This document shows, in pieces, positions 4,773-28,549 of a DNA stretch of 37,525 bases. The notes below the pieces were generated by a model that saw only the letters and a program-made list of their open reading frames with translations, had not been told where the DNA came from and searched no databases. The position numbers and the translations under genes were made by a program. The stretch is from Cyanobacteria bacterium RM1_2_2 (GTDB lineage: Bacteria; Cyanobacteriota; Cyanobacteriia; Elainellales; Elainellaceae). Each line of letters opens with the position of its first letter. The stretch's first letter is position 1. The stretch lies in the NCBI GenBank assembly GCA_012033495.1, contig JAAUQT010000027.1:1-37525 (forward strand), written 5' to 3'.

Positions 4773-5659
4773 TTGGCAAATAGCTGGTGGGAAATTCAGA
4801 TCATTGCCGATCCGTCCGCAGAAGACCTCGTGTTTTGGCGGCTAGAGGACTTTGGCTGCCGAGGCACTTCCAGCCAGGCCAAAGGTGAAGCTTACTTCAT
4901 TCAAGCCTATCTACCCCAAATCAAAGCCCAACAGCTAGACTTAGCAGCCTTAGCGCTATTGCTCCGTCAAGATGCCCTTTGCGTGGGGTTGCCTGCCCCG
5001 GTGACTCAGTGGCATCTAATCGACGAGGAAGACTGGGCGAGCAGTTGGAAGCAGCACTGGCATCCAGAGGAAGTCGGCGAGCGGTTTTTGATCAATCCCG
5101 CTTGGTTGCCCCGCCGGACACTGAGCGGTCGATTATCACCCTCGATCCGGGCGTTGCCTTTGGCACAGGCGGCCATCCCACCACGCAGCTTTGCCTAGAG
5201 TCTCTCGAAATGCGGCTGGGTGAGCCTAATCCAGAAGCCGTGTTAGCCGATATTGGCTGCGGCTCAGGCATTTTATCAATCGGCGCTCTGCTGCTAGGAG
5301 CTAAACGAGTTTACGCTGTCGATACCGATCCGCTGGCAGTGCAGTCTACCTTCAGCAATCGGGAGTTAAATCAAATTGCCGCCGAACGTTTGGTTCCAGA
5401 GGAAGGCAGCATTGATCGGTTAATTGAAATTTTGCCTGATCCCGTGGATGGTTTTGTCTGCAACATTTTGGCAGAAGTGATTATTGACCTCATTCCCAGC
5501 CTGGGCGCTATCTCTAAATCCACGACTTGGGGCATCCTCAGCGGCATTTTGCTCGATCAGGTCAAGCCAATTGCCGACACCCTCGAACAGCATGATTGGG
5601 TCGTCGCTACGCTCTGGCGGCGCAAAGACTGGTGTTGCCTCAACATTCGCCGCTCTTGA
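4773..5659 (+). pseudogene. prmA: Ribosomal protein L11 methyltransferase, single-base frameshift
   Basis: PrmA trimethylates ribosomal protein L11 using S-adenosylmethionine. The N-terminal part reads from a TTG start at 4773 ([10 protein letters not shown]), preceded by AGGCAAGG, through [11 protein letters not shown] and [10 protein letters not shown]. The reading frame then has to change at the CCCC run at 5109-5112. The rest ([25 protein letters not shown], then the SAM motif [15 protein letters not shown] and CNILAEVI) lies in the next frame up to 5659. Adding one C in the run restores an uninterrupted protein of about 295 residues, the normal PrmA length, with every family motif intact. 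A sequencing or assembly error is the simplest explanation, a real one-base deletion the alternative. The gene converges with the restriction endonuclease gene. Confidence 0.9.
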
Positions 5660-5802
5660 GCAAGCGAGTTCGTTAGCCTAGCAACCTGCAAAGCCCAACT
5701 CACTGCCTGACGGTGAAGTGTAGCGGCGGCAGTGAACCTTGAACTCATCACTAGGGACTTTTGACCGTCCGCTGCCACGCAGTGCTAGGCGGCTGTTGGC
5801 TT

Positions 5803-6771
5803 CTACAAACTGCATAGCCAACGAGAAATAGATGCAACTTGGTTCTCCTCATTTAAGTTCGCAGCATTACTGAGCATCCTGCTTTCTAATTGCTCCCAAA
5901 TTTCGCCAGCCATCCTTCTCTCAATCGCCGCCCCTACAAAAAATGTAAGTGGTGAATGACCAGCATCCGCGAATGCTTGTCTTATGCGATTTAGTGCCGC
6001 TTGTGCCGTTTTCCAATGCTCGTCAGCACCGGCTGGATCAATCCCGCCCTTCAGTTCTCCCAATGCGATTGTGTAAGGCTCAACTTCAACAGGCTCGATT
6101 GTGCTGGATTTATTAGCTGGCAGTGCTTCTGGCGCAAGATTGAACAAACAGAGATCTACATTACTTTTGACTAAGGGAATATTTAGGTTATAGATAAGAG
6201 TGCGCCTACCAAGATCACTCTCCCAACTGAGTCCACGTAAAGATAATTCAATTTCTGCATCGTCGTTTGTCATCGCTATCCACTTTTTTGTCTTTGAATG
6301 CTGCCAATGATATTTTTGACCTGCAATTGTAAGAGTTGAAAGAATAGCACGAGTCAGTTTTCTTTGTGCCAAAGCTCCACCAACATTACGCATCGAGCCA
6401 CCAAGCGTATCGCCACGAGTCAATAGAAATCTAAAGACTAATTCCTCTACAAAGTTTGCACCTGCTGGCTCAAGAAAGTTTTTGATTAGACCGTTAATCG
6501 CATCAATTTTATCCTCCGGTGTCAAATGAGTAAGAGATTTGTCAGACAATCCTGCCGCAGTCAACAATCCCATCTCGATACCCTGAATGTTTAACAAATC
6601 AGCAGGACTTTTAGCTTGATTTGCTGCTTCTTGAAGTGCCCTTGCTTCTGCAACATAAGGGGTAGCCCGTCGATTCTTCTCAAGTGCGAGTGCTACAAAG
6701 CCTGCACGAGTTGCTTCATAGGTCGTGACAAGACCGTCACTAGACTGAAGATGATTACGATAAGCAGTCAT
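5803..6771 (-). CDS. AvaI/BsoBI-type type II restriction endonuclease
   Basis: 322 residues, the same size class as AvaI and BsoBI, which cut CYCGRG after the first C. The BsoBI active site (Asp212, Glu240, Lys242 and His253, from memory) has clear counterparts: Asp206 (SNVDLCLF), Glu239 and Lys241 (GELKGG), and His252 (GADEHWKTA). The ELK-to-His spacing is identical. The mostly helical N-terminal half is also intact. It starts 9 bases after the stop of the methyltransferase gene on the same strand, so the two are probably one transcript with methylase first, as in the AvaI system and opposite to BsoBI. CYCGRG specificity is inferred by homology. No inactivating change is visible. Confidence 0.92.
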
Positions 6772-14610: not shown

Positions 14611-16161
14611 ATGCCCACTAGTTCCGAGTTTATAAATCTGTGTCAGTCACAAGTTGCGCTGCTGACGCAAGGGTTAGGAGCCGCCCTCAGCATCGTTTAT
14701 TTGGCTGAAGAGTTCACCACCGACACCGACACTCATCTCGTGCCGATTGTGGCGCATCCAGAAATGGCATTGAACTGGGGTGAAGATCAAATTCTGTCCT
14801 TTTTAACACAAGTGCGCCTCAACCTCCGGCAGCAGCGCTTGCTTGCAGCCCAACCGCATCAGGCAGTTGATGACTCTCTGGAGTGGCAACCTGAAGCCGC
14901 TGAAGAAACCAACTCTGCTGCTCTATTTTCTCAATCGCTGGTCTACCCAACGGATGTTTTGTTGCCGCAACAGCAGATCGTTTTGCCCTTCATCTATCAA
15001 GACAGAGTGATGGGGCTGTTAGTCACGGCGCGAGCAGATCGGGCTTGGAACGACTCAGAACGCAGGCAGATTGAACACATCGCCGAGAGCTTGACAGCAG
15101 CTTCCGTGTTAGATTGGCGCGTGCGTTGGCTCGCACAGGATTTGCAGCAGCAACAACTGCTAGAAGAGCGTAAAACTGACCTATTTGATAATTTACTGCA
15201 TCAGTTTCGGAATCCACTGACGGCTCTGCGCACCTTCGGCAAACTGCTCGTAAAACGAATACAGCCTAGCGATGCTAACCGTTCGGCGGCAGAAGGGATT
15301 ATCCGAGAAAGCGATCGGCTACAAGATTTGCTGAAGCAGCTAGATGCCGCAATTGATCTAGAAGCCGATGATTTAATTCCGCTGTTGGCTGCCCCGCTCA
15401 CGGTGACTCAGTCTGCCTCTCAGACAATTTCTCCGTCAGAGTCTGCATCAGAGGCTCCATCAGAGTCTTCGTCAGAGGCTCAGCCTGAAGCGCCTGCTCA
15501 TCCTTCCCCCTCGACTGCTATTACTCAGTCGTCCATTCATCCATCTGCTCAAGCATTGACTCAACCATTCTTTCAGCCGTTACCGCCGTCCGAAACTCGC
15601 TTGCTGCTAGGAAGCGCGATTGATCTACAGCCTCATTCCATCAGCGAAGTTTTGCAGCCCTTACTCGACTCAGCCACAGTGATTGCTCAAGATCGCCAAT
15701 TAACGCTCTGCATCGAAATTGCCAACCGTTTGCCGCAAGTTTGGCTCGATCTGCGGGCTTTACGGGAAGTTTTGAATAACTTAATCGACAATGCACTCAA
15801 GTACACGCCTGCTGGGGGGCAAGTGTATGTTAGCGTGCGGCGTGTTCGTCTACAGCCTGCCAATCGTGCAACCGTGACTCATCAAGCCATTTTGATCGCC
15901 GACACAGGGCCAGGCATCCCGACTGAAGACTTACATCACTTATTTGAACGACACTACCGAGGCGTGCAAGCCAAAACCGATATTCCGGGTACAGGCTTAG
16001 GATTAGCGATTGCGCGTGATTTAGTGCGGCAAATGCAAGGTGAGATCGAAATTTTCAGTCCGGCATTAGACTGTAAGCTGCTCACCCTAAACGACCTTCA
16101 GCCCCTATCTCCAGAACATCCCGGAACGGCAGCGGTGGTGTGGTTGAATGAGGTGAAGTGA
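14611..16161 (+). CDS. GAF-domain sensor histidine kinase (orphan)
   Basis: 516 residues, no membrane segment, so cytosolic. Residues about 1-170 form a GAF-like sensor. A HisKA dimerisation helix follows with phospho-acceptor His197 (LLHQFRNPLTALRTF). A Ser/Glu/Pro-rich linker (about 268-325, repeated SESASEAPSESSSEA) is inserted between the dimerisation and ATPase domains. The HATPase domain has the N box with Asn390 and Asn394 (LNNLIDNALKYTP), the G1 box DTGPGIP and the G2 box GTGLGLAIARDL. The kinase would phosphorylate a response regulator, but none is encoded nearby. The ligand is unknown, since residues for bilin attachment are not evident. The long inserted linker in the catalytic core is unusual. 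Confidence 0.92.
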   Translation: MPTSSEFINLCQSQVALLTQGLGAALSIVYLAEEFTTDTDTHLVPIVAHPEMALNWGEDQILSFLTQVRLNLRQQRLLAAQPHQAVDDSLEWQPEAAEETNSAALFSQSLVYPTDVLLPQQQIVLPFIYQDRVMGLLVTARADRAWNDSERRQIEHIAESLTAASVLDWRVRWLAQDLQQQQLLEERKTDLFDNLLHQFRNPLTALRTFGKLLVKRIQPSDANRSAAEGIIRESDRLQDLLKQLDAAIDLEADDLIPLLAAPLTVTQSASQTISPSESASEAPSESSSEAQPEAPAHPSPSTAITQSSIHPSAQALTQPFFQPLPPSETRLLLGSAIDLQPHSISEVLQPLLDSATVIAQDRQLTLCIEIANRLPQVWLDLRALREVLNNLIDNALKYTPAGGQVYVSVRRVRLQPANRATVTHQAILIADTGPGIPTEDLHHLFERHYRGVQAKTDIPGTGLGLAIARDLVRQMQGEIEIFSPALDCKLLTLNDLQPLSPEHPGTAAVVWLNEVK

Positions 16162-17582: not shown

Positions 17583-20500
17583 ATGCCACGTGCCAAATCA
17601 AAACCTAGTGCATCTGCTCCCCTAGATGCTGACACGGAACCCTTAAATGGCAGTCACGAGGAAAGTGGTCATGCTCGACGTCGAGCTAGCCAAGCGGAGC
17701 CAGCAGAAGCCAAACGGATGCCAAGAGCCGCTCAGAACGTGATTCGGATTCGAGGGGCGCGGCAGCACAATCTCAAAAACATCGATTTGGAGTTGCCCCG
17801 CGATCGGCTGATTGTGTTTACGGGCGTTTCGGGGTCGGGCAAATCGTCGCTGGCGTTCGACACGATTTTTGCAGAAGGGCAGCGGCGCTATGTGGAATCG
17901 CTGAGTGCCTATGCGCGGCAGTTTCTCGGTCAGGTGGATAAGCCCGACGTAGACGCGATTGAGGGGCTGAGTCCTGCCATTTCCATCGATCAGAAATCTA
18001 CCTCCCATAACCCGCGTTCCACCGTGGGTACGGTGACGGAAATTTATGACTACCTGCGGCTGCTGTACGGACGGGCTGGAGAGCCGCACTGCCCAATTTG
18101 TGATCGGTGCATTGAGCCGCAAGCCATCGATCAAATGGTCGATAAGATCATGGAGCTGCCTGACCGGACGCGGTTTCAAATTTTGGCTCCGGTGGTGCGC
18201 GGCAAGAAAGGAACCCACAAAAAGCTGATTTCGAGCCTGGCGTCGGAAGGGTTTGTGCGAATCCGAGTAGACGGCGAAGTGCGCGAGCTTTCAGATTCGA
18301 TCGAACTTGACAAAAACCACTTTCACAACATCGAAATCGTTGTCGATCGGTTGGTGAAAAAAGCGGGCATCGAAGAGCGCTTGGTTGATTCGCTGTCCAC
18401 CTGCCTGAAGCGGTCAGAAGGAATCGCCATGATCGAGGTGATGCCCTCTGAGAACGCTGATAACGTCGTATCGCTTAACCCCGATTTGCAGCTTGCCGTG
18501 TTGCCAGCGATGGCAGCCGAACCTGCTGGAAAATATGGCAAATCTGAAGAGGACACCGAACCGCAGCCGATTGAACTGGTTTTTTCGGAGAACTTCGCCT
18601 GCCCCGAACATGGCGCAGTGATGGAGGAATTATCACCTCGATTATTCTCGTTTAACTCGCCCTACGGAGCCTGCCCTAACTGTCACGGATTGGGGACACT
18701 CCGCACCTTTTCACCCGATCTCGTGGTTCCCGACCCCAAGCTGCCGGTCTATGCCGCGATTGCGCCGTGGTCAGACAAAGACAACACCTACTACTTTTCA
18801 TTGCTCTACAGCGTCGGGCAAGCCTTTGGCTTTGAAATTCAAACTCCCTGGAACCAACTCACACCCGATCAGCAGCAGGTGTTGTTACACGGCTCCGATG
18901 AAAAAATCTACATTGAAGCCGATTCTCGCTACCGCGACACCAAAGGCTATCAGCGGCGCTATGAAGGCATTTTACCGATGCTGGATCGGCAATACAAAGA
19001 AACCACGTCGGAGTCATACAAGCAAAAGCTAGAGCAATATTTGGTCGATCAGTCTTGTGAAGTGTGTAATGGCAAACGCTTGAAGGCAGAAGCCCTCGCC
19101 GTGCGGATCGGGCAGTACCGAATCCAGAATTTAACCAGCGCTTCGATTCGAGAGTGTTTGCATTGCGTGCATGACATGCAGCTAACACCACGGCAAGCTC
19201 AGATTGGCGAACTGGTGCTGAAGGAAATCAAGGCGCGGCTGCAATTTTTGCTGGATGTTGGCTTAGATTATCTGACGCTTGACCGCACAGCCATGACGCT
19301 TTCGGGTGGCGAAGCCCAACGCATTCGGCTTGCTACACAAATTGGGGCAGGCTTGACAGGCGTTTTGTATGTGCTGGATGAGCCGAGTATTGGCCTGCAT
19401 CAACGCGATAACGACCGCCTGCTGAATACCTTGGTCAAGCTGCGCGACTTGGGCAATACGCTAGTGGTGGTTGAACATGACGAAGACACCATTCGAGCGG
19501 CAGATTATCTCGTTGACATTGGGCCAGGCGCGGGCATTCACGGCGGAAACATCGTCGCGCAGGGGTCGCTAGATGCGATTTTAGAGGCCAAAGAGTCGCT
19601 GACCGGAGCCTATCTTTCCGGGCGCAAAGTGATCGATACACCCACCAAACGCCGCGAAGGGAATGGTCGCAGCTTATATATTCGGAACGCTTATCGGAAT
19701 AATCTGAGAAACGTTGATGTAGAGATTCCGCTCGGTAAACTGGTGTCGGTGACGGGCGTATCGGGATCGGGTAAATCTACTTTAGTCAACGAATTGCTTT
19801 ATCCGGCTTTGCAGCATCACTTCGGGCATAAAATTCCGCTTCCCAAGGAAATGGGCAAACTTGACGGATTGAATGCACTAGATAAAGTAATCGTGATTGA
19901 TCAGTCACCGATTGGACGCACTCCTCGCTCGAATCCGGCTACTTATACCGGCGTATTTGATGTCATCCGGGATCTCTTCTCCGAAACCATCGAAGCGAAA
20001 GCCAGAGGCTATAAACCTGGACAGTTTTCCTTTAACGTTAAAGGCGGTCGCTGTGAAGCCTGCGGTGGGCAAGGCGTGAACGTGATCGAAATGAACTTTC
20101 TGCCGGATGTTTACGTTCAGTGTGAAGTCTGTAAAGGCGCGAGATATAACCGGGAAACGCTGCAAGTTAAATATAAAGGCAAATCAATTGCAGATGTGTT
20201 GAACATGACCGCAGAAGAGGCGTCCGAGTTTTTGTCAACATTCCCAAAGCCGCTGCCAAACTGCAAACAATGGTAGATGTGGGCTTGGGCTACGTGCGCC
20301 TCGGACAAACCGCCCCCACTCTGTCTGGAGGGGAAGCGCAGCGGTTGAAGCTGGCAACCGAACTGTCTCGCCGCGCTACCGGTAAAACGCTATACCTCAT
20401 TGACGAACCAACCACGGGGCTTTCGTTCTACGACGTACACAAACTGCTAGACGTGCTGCAACGCCTTGCCGATATGGGCAACTCAATTTTGGTGATCGAA

Positions 20501-20707
20501 CATAACCTAGAAGTGATTCGCTGCGCTGACTGGATTATCGATCTCGGCCCAGACGGCGGTGATCGGGGCGGTGAAGTTGTGGCCCAGGGCACACCGGAAG
20601 AGGTGGCGAAAAACGAACGATCTTACACAGGACAATATTTGAAAAAAGTATTAGCGCAGCATCCGCCAGTTCACGCATCAGCTAGTCACGCATCAGCCAA
20701 AAAGTGA
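17583..20707 (+). pseudogene. uvrA: Excinuclease ABC subunit A, single-base frameshift
   Basis: UvrA is the damage-sensing ATPase of nucleotide-excision repair. The first 897-residue frame holds a basic, low-complexity N-terminal extension of ~45 residues, Walker [10 protein letters not shown] at 81-89, zinc-type CPIC and CPNC motifs, the first LSGGEAQR, a second Walker A at 725-733 and the zinc motif CEACGGQG...CEVCKG. It then goes out of frame at TTTTT, 20229-20233. The last 145 residues, with the second LSGGEAQR, the Walker [12 protein letters not shown] and the conserved tail, continue in another frame to 20707. One added T restores [15 protein letters not shown] and a protein of 1041 residues. 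All functional motifs are intact, so a homopolymer error in the sequence is likelier than a dead gene. Confidence 0.93.
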
Positions 20708-24741: not shown

Positions 24742-25161
24742 TTATTCAGCCGCACTGCTCACAGGTTCTTCCTGCAAAGACTCAATCAACTGCTCGACTC
24801 GTTCTTTGACTTCATCCCGCACTCTCGGAAAGATTTCGGGCTGTTCAGCCGGATCATCCAACTGCCAGTCGGCAAACACTTCTCGCGTCAACCATTCCGG
24901 CGGCAGATTCACGCCACAGCCGCACAGCGAAATCACCGCATCGAAGTCATCCGGCTGAAAATCGCTGAGCGGTTTGGAATATTGATCGCTGATGTCAATG
25001 CCAACTTCCTTCATGGTGGCGATGGCTTCCGGTCGCACTTGGCTCGCTTCCAAACCCGAACTCGTAACTTCGATTTTGCCTGCTCCTAGAGTTTTGGCAA
25101 AGCCTTCTGCCATTTGTGAACGAGCAGAATTTTTTTTGCAGACAAACATCACTTTTTTCAT
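24742..25161 (-). CDS. arsC: Arsenate reductase, glutathione/glutaredoxin-linked cyanobacterial type
   Basis: 139 residues from the ATG at 25161, preceded by GGAG. It has the low-molecular-weight phosphatase fold with the CX5R loop C8-KKNSA-R (VMFVCKKNSARSQMAEGFAK). Cysteines 8, 80 and 82 (SLCGCGVN) sit at the same numbers as the redox cysteines of Synechocystis ArsC. The enzyme reduces arsenate to arsenite in the cytosol. A longer frame upstream overlaps the aquaporin gene and is not used. It follows the aquaporin gene by 40 bases on the same strand and is likely co-transcribed. Confidence 0.92.
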   Translation of the reverse strand: MKKVMFVCKKNSARSQMAEGFAKTLGAGKIEVTSSGLEASQVRPEAIATMKEVGIDISDQYSKPLSDFQPDDFDAVISLCGCGVNLPPEWLTREVFADWQLDDPAEQPEIFPRVRDEVKERVEQLIESLQEEPVSSAAE

Positions 25162-25201
25162 CTGAATAATTTCTCCAATATTTAAGCCTTTCAGCTGAAC
25201 G

Positions 25202-25894
25202 CTATTCCTGTCTGAGGTCTCTAAATCCATTAGACAAATGACGATAAATCCATACCGCGATTTGTGCGCCCACAATTGGGGCAATCCAGTACAGCCAGTG
25301 ATGTTGCCAAATAACACCAACCACAGCCGGCCCCAGCGAACGAGCCGGATTCATACTGGCTCCGGTAATCGGCCCCATAAATGCGGCTTCCAGTCCGACA
25401 GTTAGCCCAATCGCAATTCCCGCGAAACCAATAGGCGCACGGCGATCTAAACCCGATCCCAAAATCACCAGCATGAGAATGAACGTGAGAACAGTTTCTA
25501 GAACGAAAGACTGTAACCAGTTGTCATTCAAGGGTAAGGTTGCACCCAAATTCCCCACCTTGCCAAACGACAGGAACAGCAGCGCGGAGGCCGCAATTGC
25601 CCCCACACACTGCGCCAAGATGTAAGACAGCACTTTATGGCGAGGAAAGACCCCACTCCTCCAAAATGCCAGCGTCACGGCTGGATTAAAGTGCGCTCCA
25701 CTGACGTGTCCCAGTGAGTAGATTAAGGCGGCGACTACGGCTCCAAAGACGAAGCTAATGCCCAAGTGAGTCACCGCCCCATCACTAATTTGGTTGACTA
25801 TCACAGCACCCGTTCCGGCGAAGACCAAAATGAAAGTGCCGATGCTTTCTGCGATTGCCTCCAATGATGTAAAACCCTTCACGCTGTCTCCCAT
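25202..25894 (-). CDS. Aquaporin/MIP channel with a wide selectivity filter
   Basis: 230 residues with six membrane helices and two NPA boxes, NPA at 70-72 (HFNPAV) and 182-184 (MNPARS). By hand alignment to E. coli AqpZ (from memory), the ar/R filter is Phe50, Ala170, Ala179, Arg185 against Phe/His/Thr/Arg in AqpZ. The His and Thr that narrow a water channel are replaced by Ala, which suggests passage of larger neutral solutes. In Sinorhizobium an aquaporin (AqpS) encoded with arsC lets arsenite leave the cell, and the same pairing here suggests that job. ATG at 25894; TTG at 25900 is possible. 95 bases follow the pstS stop. Confidence 0.87.
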   Translation of the reverse strand: MGDSVKGFTSLEAIAESIGTFILVFAGTGAVIVNQISDGAVTHLGISFVFGAVVAALIYSLGHVSGAHFNPAVTLAFWRSGVFPRHKVLSYILAQCVGAIAASALLFLSFGKVGNLGATLPLNDNWLQSFVLETVLTFILMLVILGSGLDRRAPIGFAGIAIGLTVGLEAAFMGPITGASMNPARSLGPAVVGVIWQHHWLYWIAPIVGAQIAVWIYRHLSNGFRDLRQE

Positions 25895-25989
25895 CTCCAA
25901 ATCATTGTCTTCACATCATTGACTGGTGCAATCGCTGGTTGCAATCGCTTGGCGCAAATTTAGTCCACCAAAACTGCCTTTTCTACTTT

Positions 25990-27069
25990 CTAAAGCGTTT
26001 GCTCCTTTTGTAACACCTCTCGGATGGTTAAGTAGGGCTGAGGTTCACCCTCGTAGGCTGTACCGTATTCACCTTTGAACACATGCACTTCACCCACTTC
26101 ATAGGCTTCCTGCGGTAAAGGAACGTAGCCCGCCGACTCAACAATGGTCTGCCCATTCTCCATGTAGAAAGTGATGAAGTCGCGCAAATCTTCATTTCGC
26201 TGAGCCGATTGCCCGTTGACGTAGATGAAAATTGGACGAGACAAAGGCTGATATTGAGCCTGTTCTACTGCTTCACGAGAAGGAGCGACTGCCGTTTGAG
26301 CTTGCCGAGTATCATCGAGAATGGCGACTGCCTTTAGTTTGTCTTGGTTGCGCTCGAAGTAGGAGTAACCAAAAAATCCTAATGCGTTGGGATCACTGGC
26401 AACGCCTTGCACCAATTCGTCATCATCTTCGCTGCCCGTATAGTCGCTGCGCGTATCGGCTCCGTCAGTGATCACTTCTGCAAAATAGTCATAGGTTCCA
26501 GAGTCTCCGCCTGCACCGTAGAGCTTCAGGGGGCGATTGGGAAAATCAGGGCGAATTTGATTCCAGTTGGTAATCTTCCCCTGAGCTGCTGGCTCCCAAA
26601 TTTTCTTGAGTTCGGAAACGGTGAGGTCTTGGGCCCAGTCGTTTTGAGAACTTACCGCAACGGTTAAGGCATCGAAGGCAACAGGCAGTTCAATAAACCG
26701 AACTCCGGCTTCCCGGCATGTTTCAATTTCCTCGGTAGAAATTGGACGAGAAGCATTGCTGATGTCGGTTTCGCCCGCACAGAATTTTCTGAAGCCGCCA
26801 GTGGTTCCAGAAAAGTCAACGGTGATTTGAGCATCCGGGTTGGCTTGCTGAAATTGTTCGGCTGCGGTCTTGGTGACAGGGTAGACCGTACTAGACCCAT
26901 CAATTTCTATTGTTGGAGTTGAGACGGCCACTGCCGTAGGACTTGCAGGAGCATTTGTAGTAGTAGGAGCAGTCTCTTCAGTCTGAACCGAAGGTGACGT
27001 GCAAGCAGATAGCGTGAAAATCGTTGCAATCAACGGTAGACCGAACAATCGTCCAGGATGACGTACCAT
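25990..27069 (-). CDS. PstS-like phosphate/oxyanion-binding lipoprotein
   Basis: 359 residues. A lipoprotein signal ends in LSAC with lipid-attachment Cys23, then a short Thr/Pro/Ala-rich linker. The binding fold has the PstS motifs DGSSTVYPVT, DFSGTTGGFRKFCAGETDI, ISNASRPI and GAGGDSGTYDYF. PstS proteins deliver phosphate (and, less well, arsenate) to the PstCAB transporter; no pstCAB genes are here. Lying first in a unit with an aquaporin and arsC, behind an ArsR-type operator, it may be an arsenic-responsive version that favours phosphate uptake under arsenate stress. That role is inference. AAAGGAG precedes the ATG. Confidence 0.88.
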   Translation of the reverse strand: MVRHPGRLFGLPLIATIFTLSACTSPSVQTEETAPTTTNAPASPTAVAVSTPTIEIDGSSTVYPVTKTAAEQFQQANPDAQITVDFSGTTGGFRKFCAGETDISNASRPISTEEIETCREAGVRFIELPVAFDALTVAVSSQNDWAQDLTVSELKKIWEPAAQGKITNWNQIRPDFPNRPLKLYGAGGDSGTYDYFAEVITDGADTRSDYTGSEDDDELVQGVASDPNALGFFGYSYFERNQDKLKAVAILDDTRQAQTAVAPSREAVEQAQYQPLSRPIFIYVNGQSAQRNEDLRDFITFYMENGQTIVESAGYVPLPQEAYEVGEVHVFKGEYGTAYEGEPQPYLTIREVLQKEQTL

Positions 27070-27139
27070 AAAACTCCTTTAGCGCAAAGAGAATCTGAAT
27101 TCAAAGAGCAGCTTTGCACTTGACTTAAGATACTGATAC

Positions 27140-27155
27140 ATCAAATTATATTGAT
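27140..27155 (-). promoter_or_regulatory. ArsR-type operator wrapped around the -10 box of the pstS-aquaporin-arsC unit
   Basis: On the minus strand it reads ATCAA-TATAAT-TTGAT. The arms are a perfect inverted repeat in the ATCAA-N6-TTGAT pattern reported for ArsR-family operators, and the six-base spacer is a consensus -10 box. Repressor binding would block polymerase. The start would be near 27138, giving a leader of about 70 nucleotides. An overlapping inverted repeat ATTGA-TTAG-TCAAT lies at 27150-27163. No good -35 is seen. Confidence 0.65.
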
Positions 27156-27326
27156 TAGTCAATTAAAGCAAGATTAGACTGTATCAGCCGAAACAAAACT
27201 TAAGGTCAGGCAAGCTTTGGCAATGCCAGAAGCAGGCACGAGAGGCAGGCGGGGGATCAGACACACCCTGATAGTTTCGCGGCATCGCTAGGCACTCTAG
27301 ATCTGGCGATCCTTAAGGGCTGATCC

Positions 27327-28549
27327 ATGAAAATTCTGATGTTGTCGTCCACTTTTCCCTATCCACCTAGCCGAGGCGGAACAGAAATTCGGACGTTTAA
27401 TTTACTCAAATATTTACAACAACGCCACGCTGTTACACTAGTGACTCAGCGGCATTCAGGCGTCACCGATGCAGAAGTAGCAGAACTGCGCTCAGAGGTG
27501 ACAGAACTCGTGATGTTTGGGCTACCAGAATCGCCAGCCACCGCGAATCCGATCAACCGAATGACAGGACAAATCAACCGTTTGGCAACTTCGATTCTGA
27601 GCACGACGCCGCCAAATGTACTGCATCGCTATTCACCAGAGATGCAAAATTGGATCACCGCTGCCGTTCAGTCTGGAACTTACGATGCCGTCACTTGTGA
27701 ACATAGCGTCAACGAAATTTATATTCAGCCTACGTTCCAGCAATCAATCAAAACCGTCGTCGATGTACATAGCTCAGTCTATGCTTGGACACGCAACCAT
27801 CTCGAAATGGGAGCTTCGCAACATCCGTGGCGTGATCGGCTCTATCTGCCGCTGCTAAGGCGTTATGAGCAGCGCTATTCGGCTAAGTTTTCCCACATTG
27901 TCGTCACGACTGAAGATGACCGTCAAGAACTCTTGCGCTTTCGTCCCCATGCCCCGATTCAAGTGATTCCGAATGGCGTAGATCTCGATCTGTTTCCTTG
28001 CCGCCAGCACGACCCCAGCAGCTATGATCTGGTGTTTGTCGGCGCAATGGATGCTTCCCATAATATCGATGCGGCTCGTTTTTTGCCCTCGAAGTCATGC
28101 CCTTACTGCGGCAACGCTACCCGGCAGCTAGCTTTCGGATTGTTGGAGCGCGTCCCACACCGGAAGTCAAGGCACTCACGGCCCAGCCCGGCGTGGTAGT
28201 CACTGGAAAAGTCGCTTCTATGGTAGATGAACTGCATAAAGCAACGGTTTGTGTTGTGCCGCTGAGAACGGGGTTTGGGATTAAAAATAAAACATTAGAA
28301 GCAATGGCCGCAGGTGTGCCTGTAGTGGGCAGCGATCGAGGCTTAGAAGGGTTGGCGGTAGATGAAGCGAACCTGCCGCTGCGAGCATTACGGGCTAATG
28401 GTGTTGAAGCCTACCTGAATGCCATCACCCGTTTGTTTGAAGATGCGGCACTGCGAAGCGATCTGAGTCAGGCAGGTCTTATTTTTGTCCAACGAGAGTA
28501 TACTTGGGAACAGGCGGGAGCAGCCTATGAGCAGGTTTTGAGCGCTTAA
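27327..28549 (+). pseudogene. Group-4-type glycosyltransferase, single-base frameshift
   Basis: GT-B fold glycosyltransferase. The N-terminal acceptor domain begins MKILMLSSTFPYPPSRGGTE; the donor domain has VVTTEDDRQELLRF, VIPNGVDLDLFP and, after the frame change, VVPLRTGFGIKNKTLEAMAAGVPVVGSDRGLEGL. The frame breaks at the TTTTTT run at 28079-28084. Adding one T gives the uninterrupted ARFFALEVMPLLRQRYPAASFRIVG and a 407-residue protein, normal for the family. The sugar and acceptor are unknown; polysaccharide or glycoconjugate synthesis is likely. As with prmA and uvrA, a homopolymer sequence error is the simplest cause. Confidence 0.88.

Follow-up and report, generated by a model that had tools for sequence, protein, structure and literature searches.

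A predicted cyanobacterial arsenic operon with an aquaporin in the position of the Acr3 pump, between pstS and arsC

In cyanobacteria, arsenic gene clusters have been described in which arsB and arsC are accompanied by genes for PstS, Gap3, an MFS transporter and a glyoxalase, with arsR sometimes located upstream of pstS (PMC4284471), and a cluster of Nodularia contains arsR, sphX, gapdh, an MFS gene, acr3 and arsH (PMC3610870); these and the other papers given here by PMC number are cited from excerpts of their text. Among other bacteria, AqpS of Sinorhizobium is a possible substitute for ArsB (PMC6205960), and the pstS1 gene of Agrobacterium is reported to be under ArsR control (PMC3834237, citing Kang 2012). 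Eighteen genes of the MIP family have been listed in ars operons, none of them with another transporter (PMC4435449). The word cyanobacteria is absent from the text of that paper as searched, and no description of an exchange between aquaporin and Acr3 in cyanobacterial ars operons was found in searches of open-access literature, which is a limited negative. Here we describe a locus of Cyanobacteria bacterium RM1_2_2 that encodes a PstS-like phosphate-binding protein (pstS), an MIP-family channel (aqp) and an arsenate reductase (arsC). It lies on contig JAAUQT010000027.1, the whole of which, 37,525 nucleotides, was analysed and is called the window below; it corresponds to C171 among the 335 contigs of a 5.54-Mb draft genome with an estimated completeness of 91.65%. 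With a probability of roughly 0.72, we read the locus as a cyanobacterial arsenic-detoxification operon with a channel in place of the pump, an ArsR operator in the promoter spacer and a PstS that protects phosphate uptake. Below, L, G and C numbers denote comparison loci, genomes and contigs of the draft, respectively.

The three genes are co-directed on the minus strand and separated by 95 and 40 bases, an arrangement proposed in an earlier note on this DNA and confirmed from the coordinates of the open reading frames (ORFs). The first gene, pstS (25990..27069), encodes a protein of 359 residues that matches TIGR02136 with 294.1 bits (cut-off 206.6); its N-terminus appears lipoprotein-like by eye, and its best solved relative is 4jwo, a 'Phosphate binding protein' (E 6.2e-75). 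The second, aqp (25202..25894), matches PF00230 (E 3.1e-58) and TIGR00861 (191 bits, cut-off 171), and its product retains both NPA boxes and the filter Arg of the MIP family; the best solved relatives are AqpM (3ne2, 155 bits) and NIP2-1 (7cjs, 140 bits), with AqpZ behind them (123 bits). Its start codon is either the ATG at 25894, which yields the 95-base gap, or the GTG at 25882, and the TTG at 25900 is a further in-frame start. The third, arsC (24742..25161), encodes an arsenate reductase of the cyanobacterial glutathione/glutaredoxin type (TIGR02689, 216.4 bits, cut-off 157.6); the closest solved chain is 2l17 ('Arsenate reductase', 'Glutaredoxin arsenate reductase'), and Cys8, Cys80 and Cys82 are kept in the window as well as in all 90 members of the ArsC cluster. 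Neither arsR nor a gene for an arsenite pump was found among the adjoining ORFs, as had been claimed. These family identities, together with the comparison of the operator across cyanobacteria, bear out the proposal of a three-gene arsenic operon, whose genes would be transcribed jointly.

Comparison loci were taken from two sources. One was a class-level search for PstS, which covered 319 genomes and gave a match in 241; 34 loci were picked from among its top matches. The other was a contig scan with the ArsC of the window, of whose 447 relatives the best 80 were used. Because the latter 80 are the loci most similar to this ArsC, their proportions are not natural frequencies. Of the resulting 115 ars loci (L056-L169 and the window), 102 qualified by having pstS, aqp or acr3 in the neighbourhood of another ars gene; after removal of the other 13 and of five duplicates among the 102, 97 distinct loci remained, window included, which share kinship, so that locus counts are not independent events.

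Upstream of pstS, the minus strand carries a predicted ArsR-type operator, ATCAA-TATAAT-TTGAT (27140..27155), and the perfect inverted repeat reported earlier was confirmed. In the 250 bp that precede the first structural gene, the motif ATCAA-N6-TTGAT was present exactly at 48 of the 97 loci and with at most one mismatch at 79, while the reversed motif gave none and one, respectively. Four shuffles of the half-sites reached at most one exact and at most five one-mismatch loci, and spacers of 5, 7 and 8 bases at most one and four; a control set of 947 regions preceding other ORFs of these loci, with spurious ORFs kept, gave 10 exact sites and 40 with at most one mismatch. The operator is thus much more common upstream of ars structural genes than in the controls, so that it counts as a genuine element conserved among these operons, which backs its assignment to the ArsR type. 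An initial count, made upstream of whichever named gene came first, even where this was arsR, had given 47 of 99 loci with at most one mismatch, 25 of them exact; it was replaced by these figures because the sites overlapped many called arsR starts. The genome-wide search for ATCAA-N6-TTGAT that the earlier note proposed returned 14 exact places (five for the reversed control), nine of them inside called ORFs and five outside, the pstS site being one of the five; no ars gene was recognised by eye beside the others. Across the window, seven such sites with at most one mismatch were counted against 1.55 expected, a number reached by none of 100 shuffles, and the second exact one (15881-15896) lies within an ORF. 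Directly downstream of the operator, the sequence ATCAGTATCTTAAGTC (27122..27137, minus strand) occupies the place of a second ATCAA-type site in near relatives, for example ATCAATATTTTTAGAT in L060, and may be a degenerate tandem copy of the operator.

The position of the operator relative to the promoter appears to differ from that first proposed, in which the -10 box lay inside the operator. A TTGACA-like hexamer (at least 5/6) starts 7 bases before the operator, and ends one base short of it, in 52 of the 79 sites, and a TATAAT-like hexamer (at least 5/6) starts 15 bases after the first base of the operator in 31; the TTGAT half of the operator itself trivially accounts for a further TTGACA-like peak, found in 54 sites at offset 11. 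The window has a likely -35 hexamer, TTGACT (27157..27162, minus strand), which agrees with TTGACA in five of six positions and is separated from the operator by a single base. Where the conserved -10 would be expected, the window reads TGTATC (3/6 only); a possible weak -10 is TATCAG (27133..27138, minus strand; 4/6), 18 bases from the -35. Five of nine near loci (L058, L060, L062, L063, L064) have GTATCA following the operator, as the window does, and opening the second tandem site, with TATCAA at the place of the -10 of the window; the other four (L056, L059, L061, L065) lack TATCAA there. Since the -35 offset is fixed in 52 and the -10 follows in 31 of the 79 sites, the operator probably fills the spacer between -35 and -10 rather than holding the -10. 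It is unlikely, by comparison, that the TATAAT within the palindrome (27150-27145) is the -10 and is directly masked by ArsR. This hexamer is perfect and better than the other local -10 candidates, but it has no good -35 at a spacing of 16-18 (the best by eye is 3/6 at a spacing of 15), and a TATAAT-like hexamer (at least 5/6) occurs within the operator spacer in only three of the 79 sites, being exact in the window alone. A consensus scan of the region gave four promoter-like sites against 2.5 expected, with no minus-strand promoter at the palindrome and two weak plus-strand ones overlapping it (27120-27149, 27125-27152).

With regard to the regulator, many relatives have arsR directly upstream of pstS, where the window instead has a glycosyltransferase gene in divergent orientation (27327 onward, plus strand). 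A search with the arsenic-type ArsR of G200 gave a match in each of the 24 comparison genomes, G200 included, with E values no higher than 4.2e-33; of these genomes, nine belong to the family of the window and 15 were picked for operons seemingly without arsR. Two of these 15 have arsR upstream of aqp (L141, L152), and 13 gave no ArsR match in the stretch fetched around the operon, which for one of them (L160) included only 1.9 kb upstream; as their genomes do have a match, the ArsR of those 13 genomes lies elsewhere. The trans-acting ArsR that the earlier note implied is thus a fair analogy for the operon of the window, drawn from 13 of 15 picked genomes; its counterpart in the draft genome itself was not found. 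Three ArsR-family genes of the draft, on C158 (with an ELCVC motif), C154 and C45, were tried as candidates and are only 32-49% alike over 72-76 residues; they are poor ones, both for this low likeness and because matches about as strong as that of C154 stand beside a true arsenic-type ArsR in several relatives. We take the C158 protein to be SmtB/ZiaR-like, and the HTH_5 matches of the genome are of other types by their residues. A loss of arsenic regulation, with arsR gone from both its cis position and the genome and the operon expressed constitutively, would agree with the lack of arsR upstream of pstS and with a draft that yields no arsenic-type ArsR against all 24 comparison genomes. It is nevertheless doubtful, since the operator is still a perfect palindrome and the draft is fragmented and incomplete, with an arsH that lies close to the beginning of contig C22, after a PstS-family gene truncated by the contig end. 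That contig (L224; PstS-family gene at 2-1249, followed by arsH) represents a second, truncated arsenic or phosphate locus, and a missing ars segment may well belong at its start. In Synechocystis salina (L215), an unlinked arsenic-type arsR (5009-5302, minus strand) is divergent from a gene for an AqpZ-type aquaporin (5673-6398, plus strand), and ArsR may also act on the promoter of this aquaporin there.

The aquaporin of the operon stands in the slot that is held by acr3 in the nearest readable relatives by PstS (G186, G125). Counts were made on 71 of the 80 ArsC-scan loci, those with at least 3.5 kb upstream of arsC (the nine with less were dropped), and an aquaporin was counted if at least 60% identical and within 3 kb of arsC. 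Aquaporin alone was found in 33 loci, Acr3 alone in 30, both in four and neither in four (Fisher p 1.6e-11, kinship uncorrected), so that 37 of the 71 have the aquaporin and the two genes nearly exclude one another in this set. A first count, in which no locus had both, was rejected, as its identity threshold had missed a divergent type of Acr3; this type lies near aqp and arsC in L127, L137, L142 and L155 and is 32-33% identical to the common type in the three cases compared. In L149, counted among the loci with neither, arsC is followed by a MIP gene that is more distant (40% identity). The direct order ArsR-PstS-Aqp-ArsC was observed in four of the 80 ArsC-scan loci (L092, L098, L101, L122), with only a 54-residue piece of the aquaporin matching in L098. 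At E 1e-60 the aquaporin is found in five of 36 genomes of the family, that of the window included, and is a minority solution among close kin. The searches for acr3 and arsB that had been called for gave a mixed outcome: acr3 was not found in the operon or elsewhere in the genome, and ArsJ was likewise not found in a search of the genome, while an ArsB/DASS-type permease was detected and is weighed below.

A tree of PstS with 80 rows has at least 12 changes of the aquaporin label on well supported branches and 14 in all, the mean for shuffled labels being 18, and therefore swapping, loss or gene exchange has been frequent. The PstS of the window belongs to the ars-linked PstS proteins, in a fork of six rows of which four have acr3 as slot-mate (support 100/97), which suggests that in this lineage the swap came after PstS was already part of an acr3-type operon. 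We consider it an even chance that an F-A-A-R aquaporin has been repeatedly traded with Acr3 in ArsR-controlled operons of the form pstS-X-arsC, with an unpowered exit of arsenite and an arsenic-induced PstS that protects phosphate uptake.

The F-A-A-R signature refers to the selectivity-filter positions of the channel, as mapped on those of AqpZ and Lsi1; the four residues are common to 42, 43, 43 and 44 of the 44 cluster members, respectively. One AqpZ-type outgroup reads F-H-T-R, and its His and Thr positions are each Ala in 43 of the 44. The wider pore predicted from these residues fits the passage of arsenite, short of proof. Membership in the MIP family, whose AqpZ-type channels conduct water, would equally suit an osmotic water channel placed beside arsC for reasons unrelated to arsenic; this explanation is very improbable in view of the 37 of 71 ArsC loci in which the aquaporin lies no more than 3 kb from arsC, in 33 cases with Acr3 absent, and of the replacement of the two AqpZ-type filter residues.

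As to the role of PstS, the earlier note regarded such a protein under ars control as less familiar, a view that needs tempering, since it has already been described for cyanobacterial ars operons, sometimes next to arsR (PMC4284471). The PstS of the window keeps the phosphate-class motifs of its family and falls inside the ars-linked PstS group in the tree, apart from the other PstS of the genome, at C332; pstC, pstA and pstB were not found in the operon, which comprises pstS, aqp and arsC only. In phosphate-binding proteins tested elsewhere, the preference for phosphate is 500- to 4500-fold (Elias 2012, according to PMC3815915), and because this class of proteins is so selective, protection of phosphate uptake is favoured. 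Most likely, the protein loads phosphate onto the Pst transporter of the genome and keeps uptake selective under arsenate. Alternatively, PstS may capture or import arsenate as a step of the pathway, as its description as an oxyanion-binding component had implied. The linkage and common direction of pstS and arsC in many loci is compatible with this, and several possibilities for such PstS proteins are listed in PMC4284471; the retained phosphate-class motifs, the preference for phosphate measured elsewhere and the absence of PstCAB genes from the operon make it improbable.

A number of observations weigh against the operon as we read it. The proposed -10 of the window, TATCAG, is weak, and the perfect TATAAT in the operator remains a possible -10. 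An arsenic-type ArsR was not found in the draft genome, the best match being 49% over 76 residues (E 1.7e-15). Replacement of the pump is not strict, as four of the 37 aquaporin loci also have the divergent Acr3, and the genome of the window encodes, at C325, an ArsB/DASS-type permease that exceeds the Pfam ArsB cut-off (51.7 bits, cut-off 22.2) but stays far below those of NCBIfam for ArsB (93 bits, cut-off 457), so that arsenite may have a further way out. In Synechocystis, the sole aquaporin gene is repressed by arsenic, which was interpreted as a way to limit the entry of arsenite (PMC4010505); its annotation is aqpZ, but a channel can work both ways. Finally, no terminator was found 3' of arsC in the promoter and terminator scan of the region.

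The remaining features concern the surroundings of the operon and of its relatives. Profile scans covered the operon and its flanking genes and little of the remaining window; the flanking genes encode a rhodanese-like protein, a protein with a nuclease/phosphatase fold and parts of a glycosyltransferase. Direct repeats of CTTCTTAGCGC were seen by eye directly 3' of arsC (about 24728-24694), ahead of the rhodanese-like gene. The divergent glycosyltransferase gene is split, with the ORFs 27327-28199 and 28097-28549 matching consecutive parts of TIGR03087, and so is uvrA, whose overlapping ORFs 17583-20276 and 20270-20707 correspond to profile positions 3-806 and 814-942; the latter looks like a frameshift or an assembly error. 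Two partner genes recur in the comparison loci. A small protein (cluster 6, in 27 loci; for example L096:8975-9436), which we assume to be dual-specificity/tyrosine-phosphatase-like, is encoded beside arsC, arsH and acr3, and its only NCBIfam match, PRK12361, is far below cut-off. The arsenosugar radical SAM protein ArsS (TIGR04167; cluster 7, in 17 loci; for example L124:806-1792) is encoded near arsC, mostly directly 3' of it, in many ars loci of the Microcoleus type.

Taken together, the proposed mechanism would run as follows. An ArsR-type repressor would sit on the operator between the TTGACT -35 and the weak -10 and leave when arsenite appears, inducing the operon; ArsC would reduce arsenate to arsenite with glutathione/glutaredoxin; the wide-filter aquaporin in the slot of Acr3 would let arsenite leave down its gradient; and PstS, devoid of a permease of its own, would load phosphate onto the Pst transporter of the genome, so that phosphate uptake stays selective under arsenate. 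If this is true, many cyanobacteria owe their arsenic resistance to a passive channel and not to a pump, and they would resist arsenate while remaining exposed to arsenite from outside, as has been reported for Sinorhizobium. The locus would provide a direct test case for why pump and channel trade places in one operon and for the role of PstS, and the operator and promoter together would give a sharp model for locating ArsR targets in cyanobacterial genomes.

In comparison with described systems, the operon is of an already known kind, and the channel in place of the pump makes it an interesting variant. With the cyanobacterial arsR-pstS-acr3(arsB)-arsC clusters (PMC4284471) it shares an ars-linked PstS, a reductase of the ArsC-Syn type and the proposed co-regulation by arsenic, and it differs from them in having the aquaporin in the slot of acr3 and no arsR in cis. 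The arsBHC operon of Synechocystis, with its unlinked arsR (PMC4284471), offers the same model of a trans-acting ArsR, and in Synechocystis salina the homologous acr3 operon (L154) is likewise preceded by the exact operator; arsBHC carries Acr3 and ArsH where the window has PstS and the aquaporin. The agrobacterial and Halomonas arsenic islands (PMC3834237, PMC5930303) likewise tie phosphate-binding genes to arsenic genes, but they link whole pst operons, whereas the window has pstS alone. The aqpS operon of Sinorhizobium meliloti (Yang 2005, as told in PMC6205960 and PMC4435449) shares an MIP channel that would stand in for the arsenite pump, a likeness of protein family and gene position; relative to it, the operon of the window adds pstS and has no arsR in cis.

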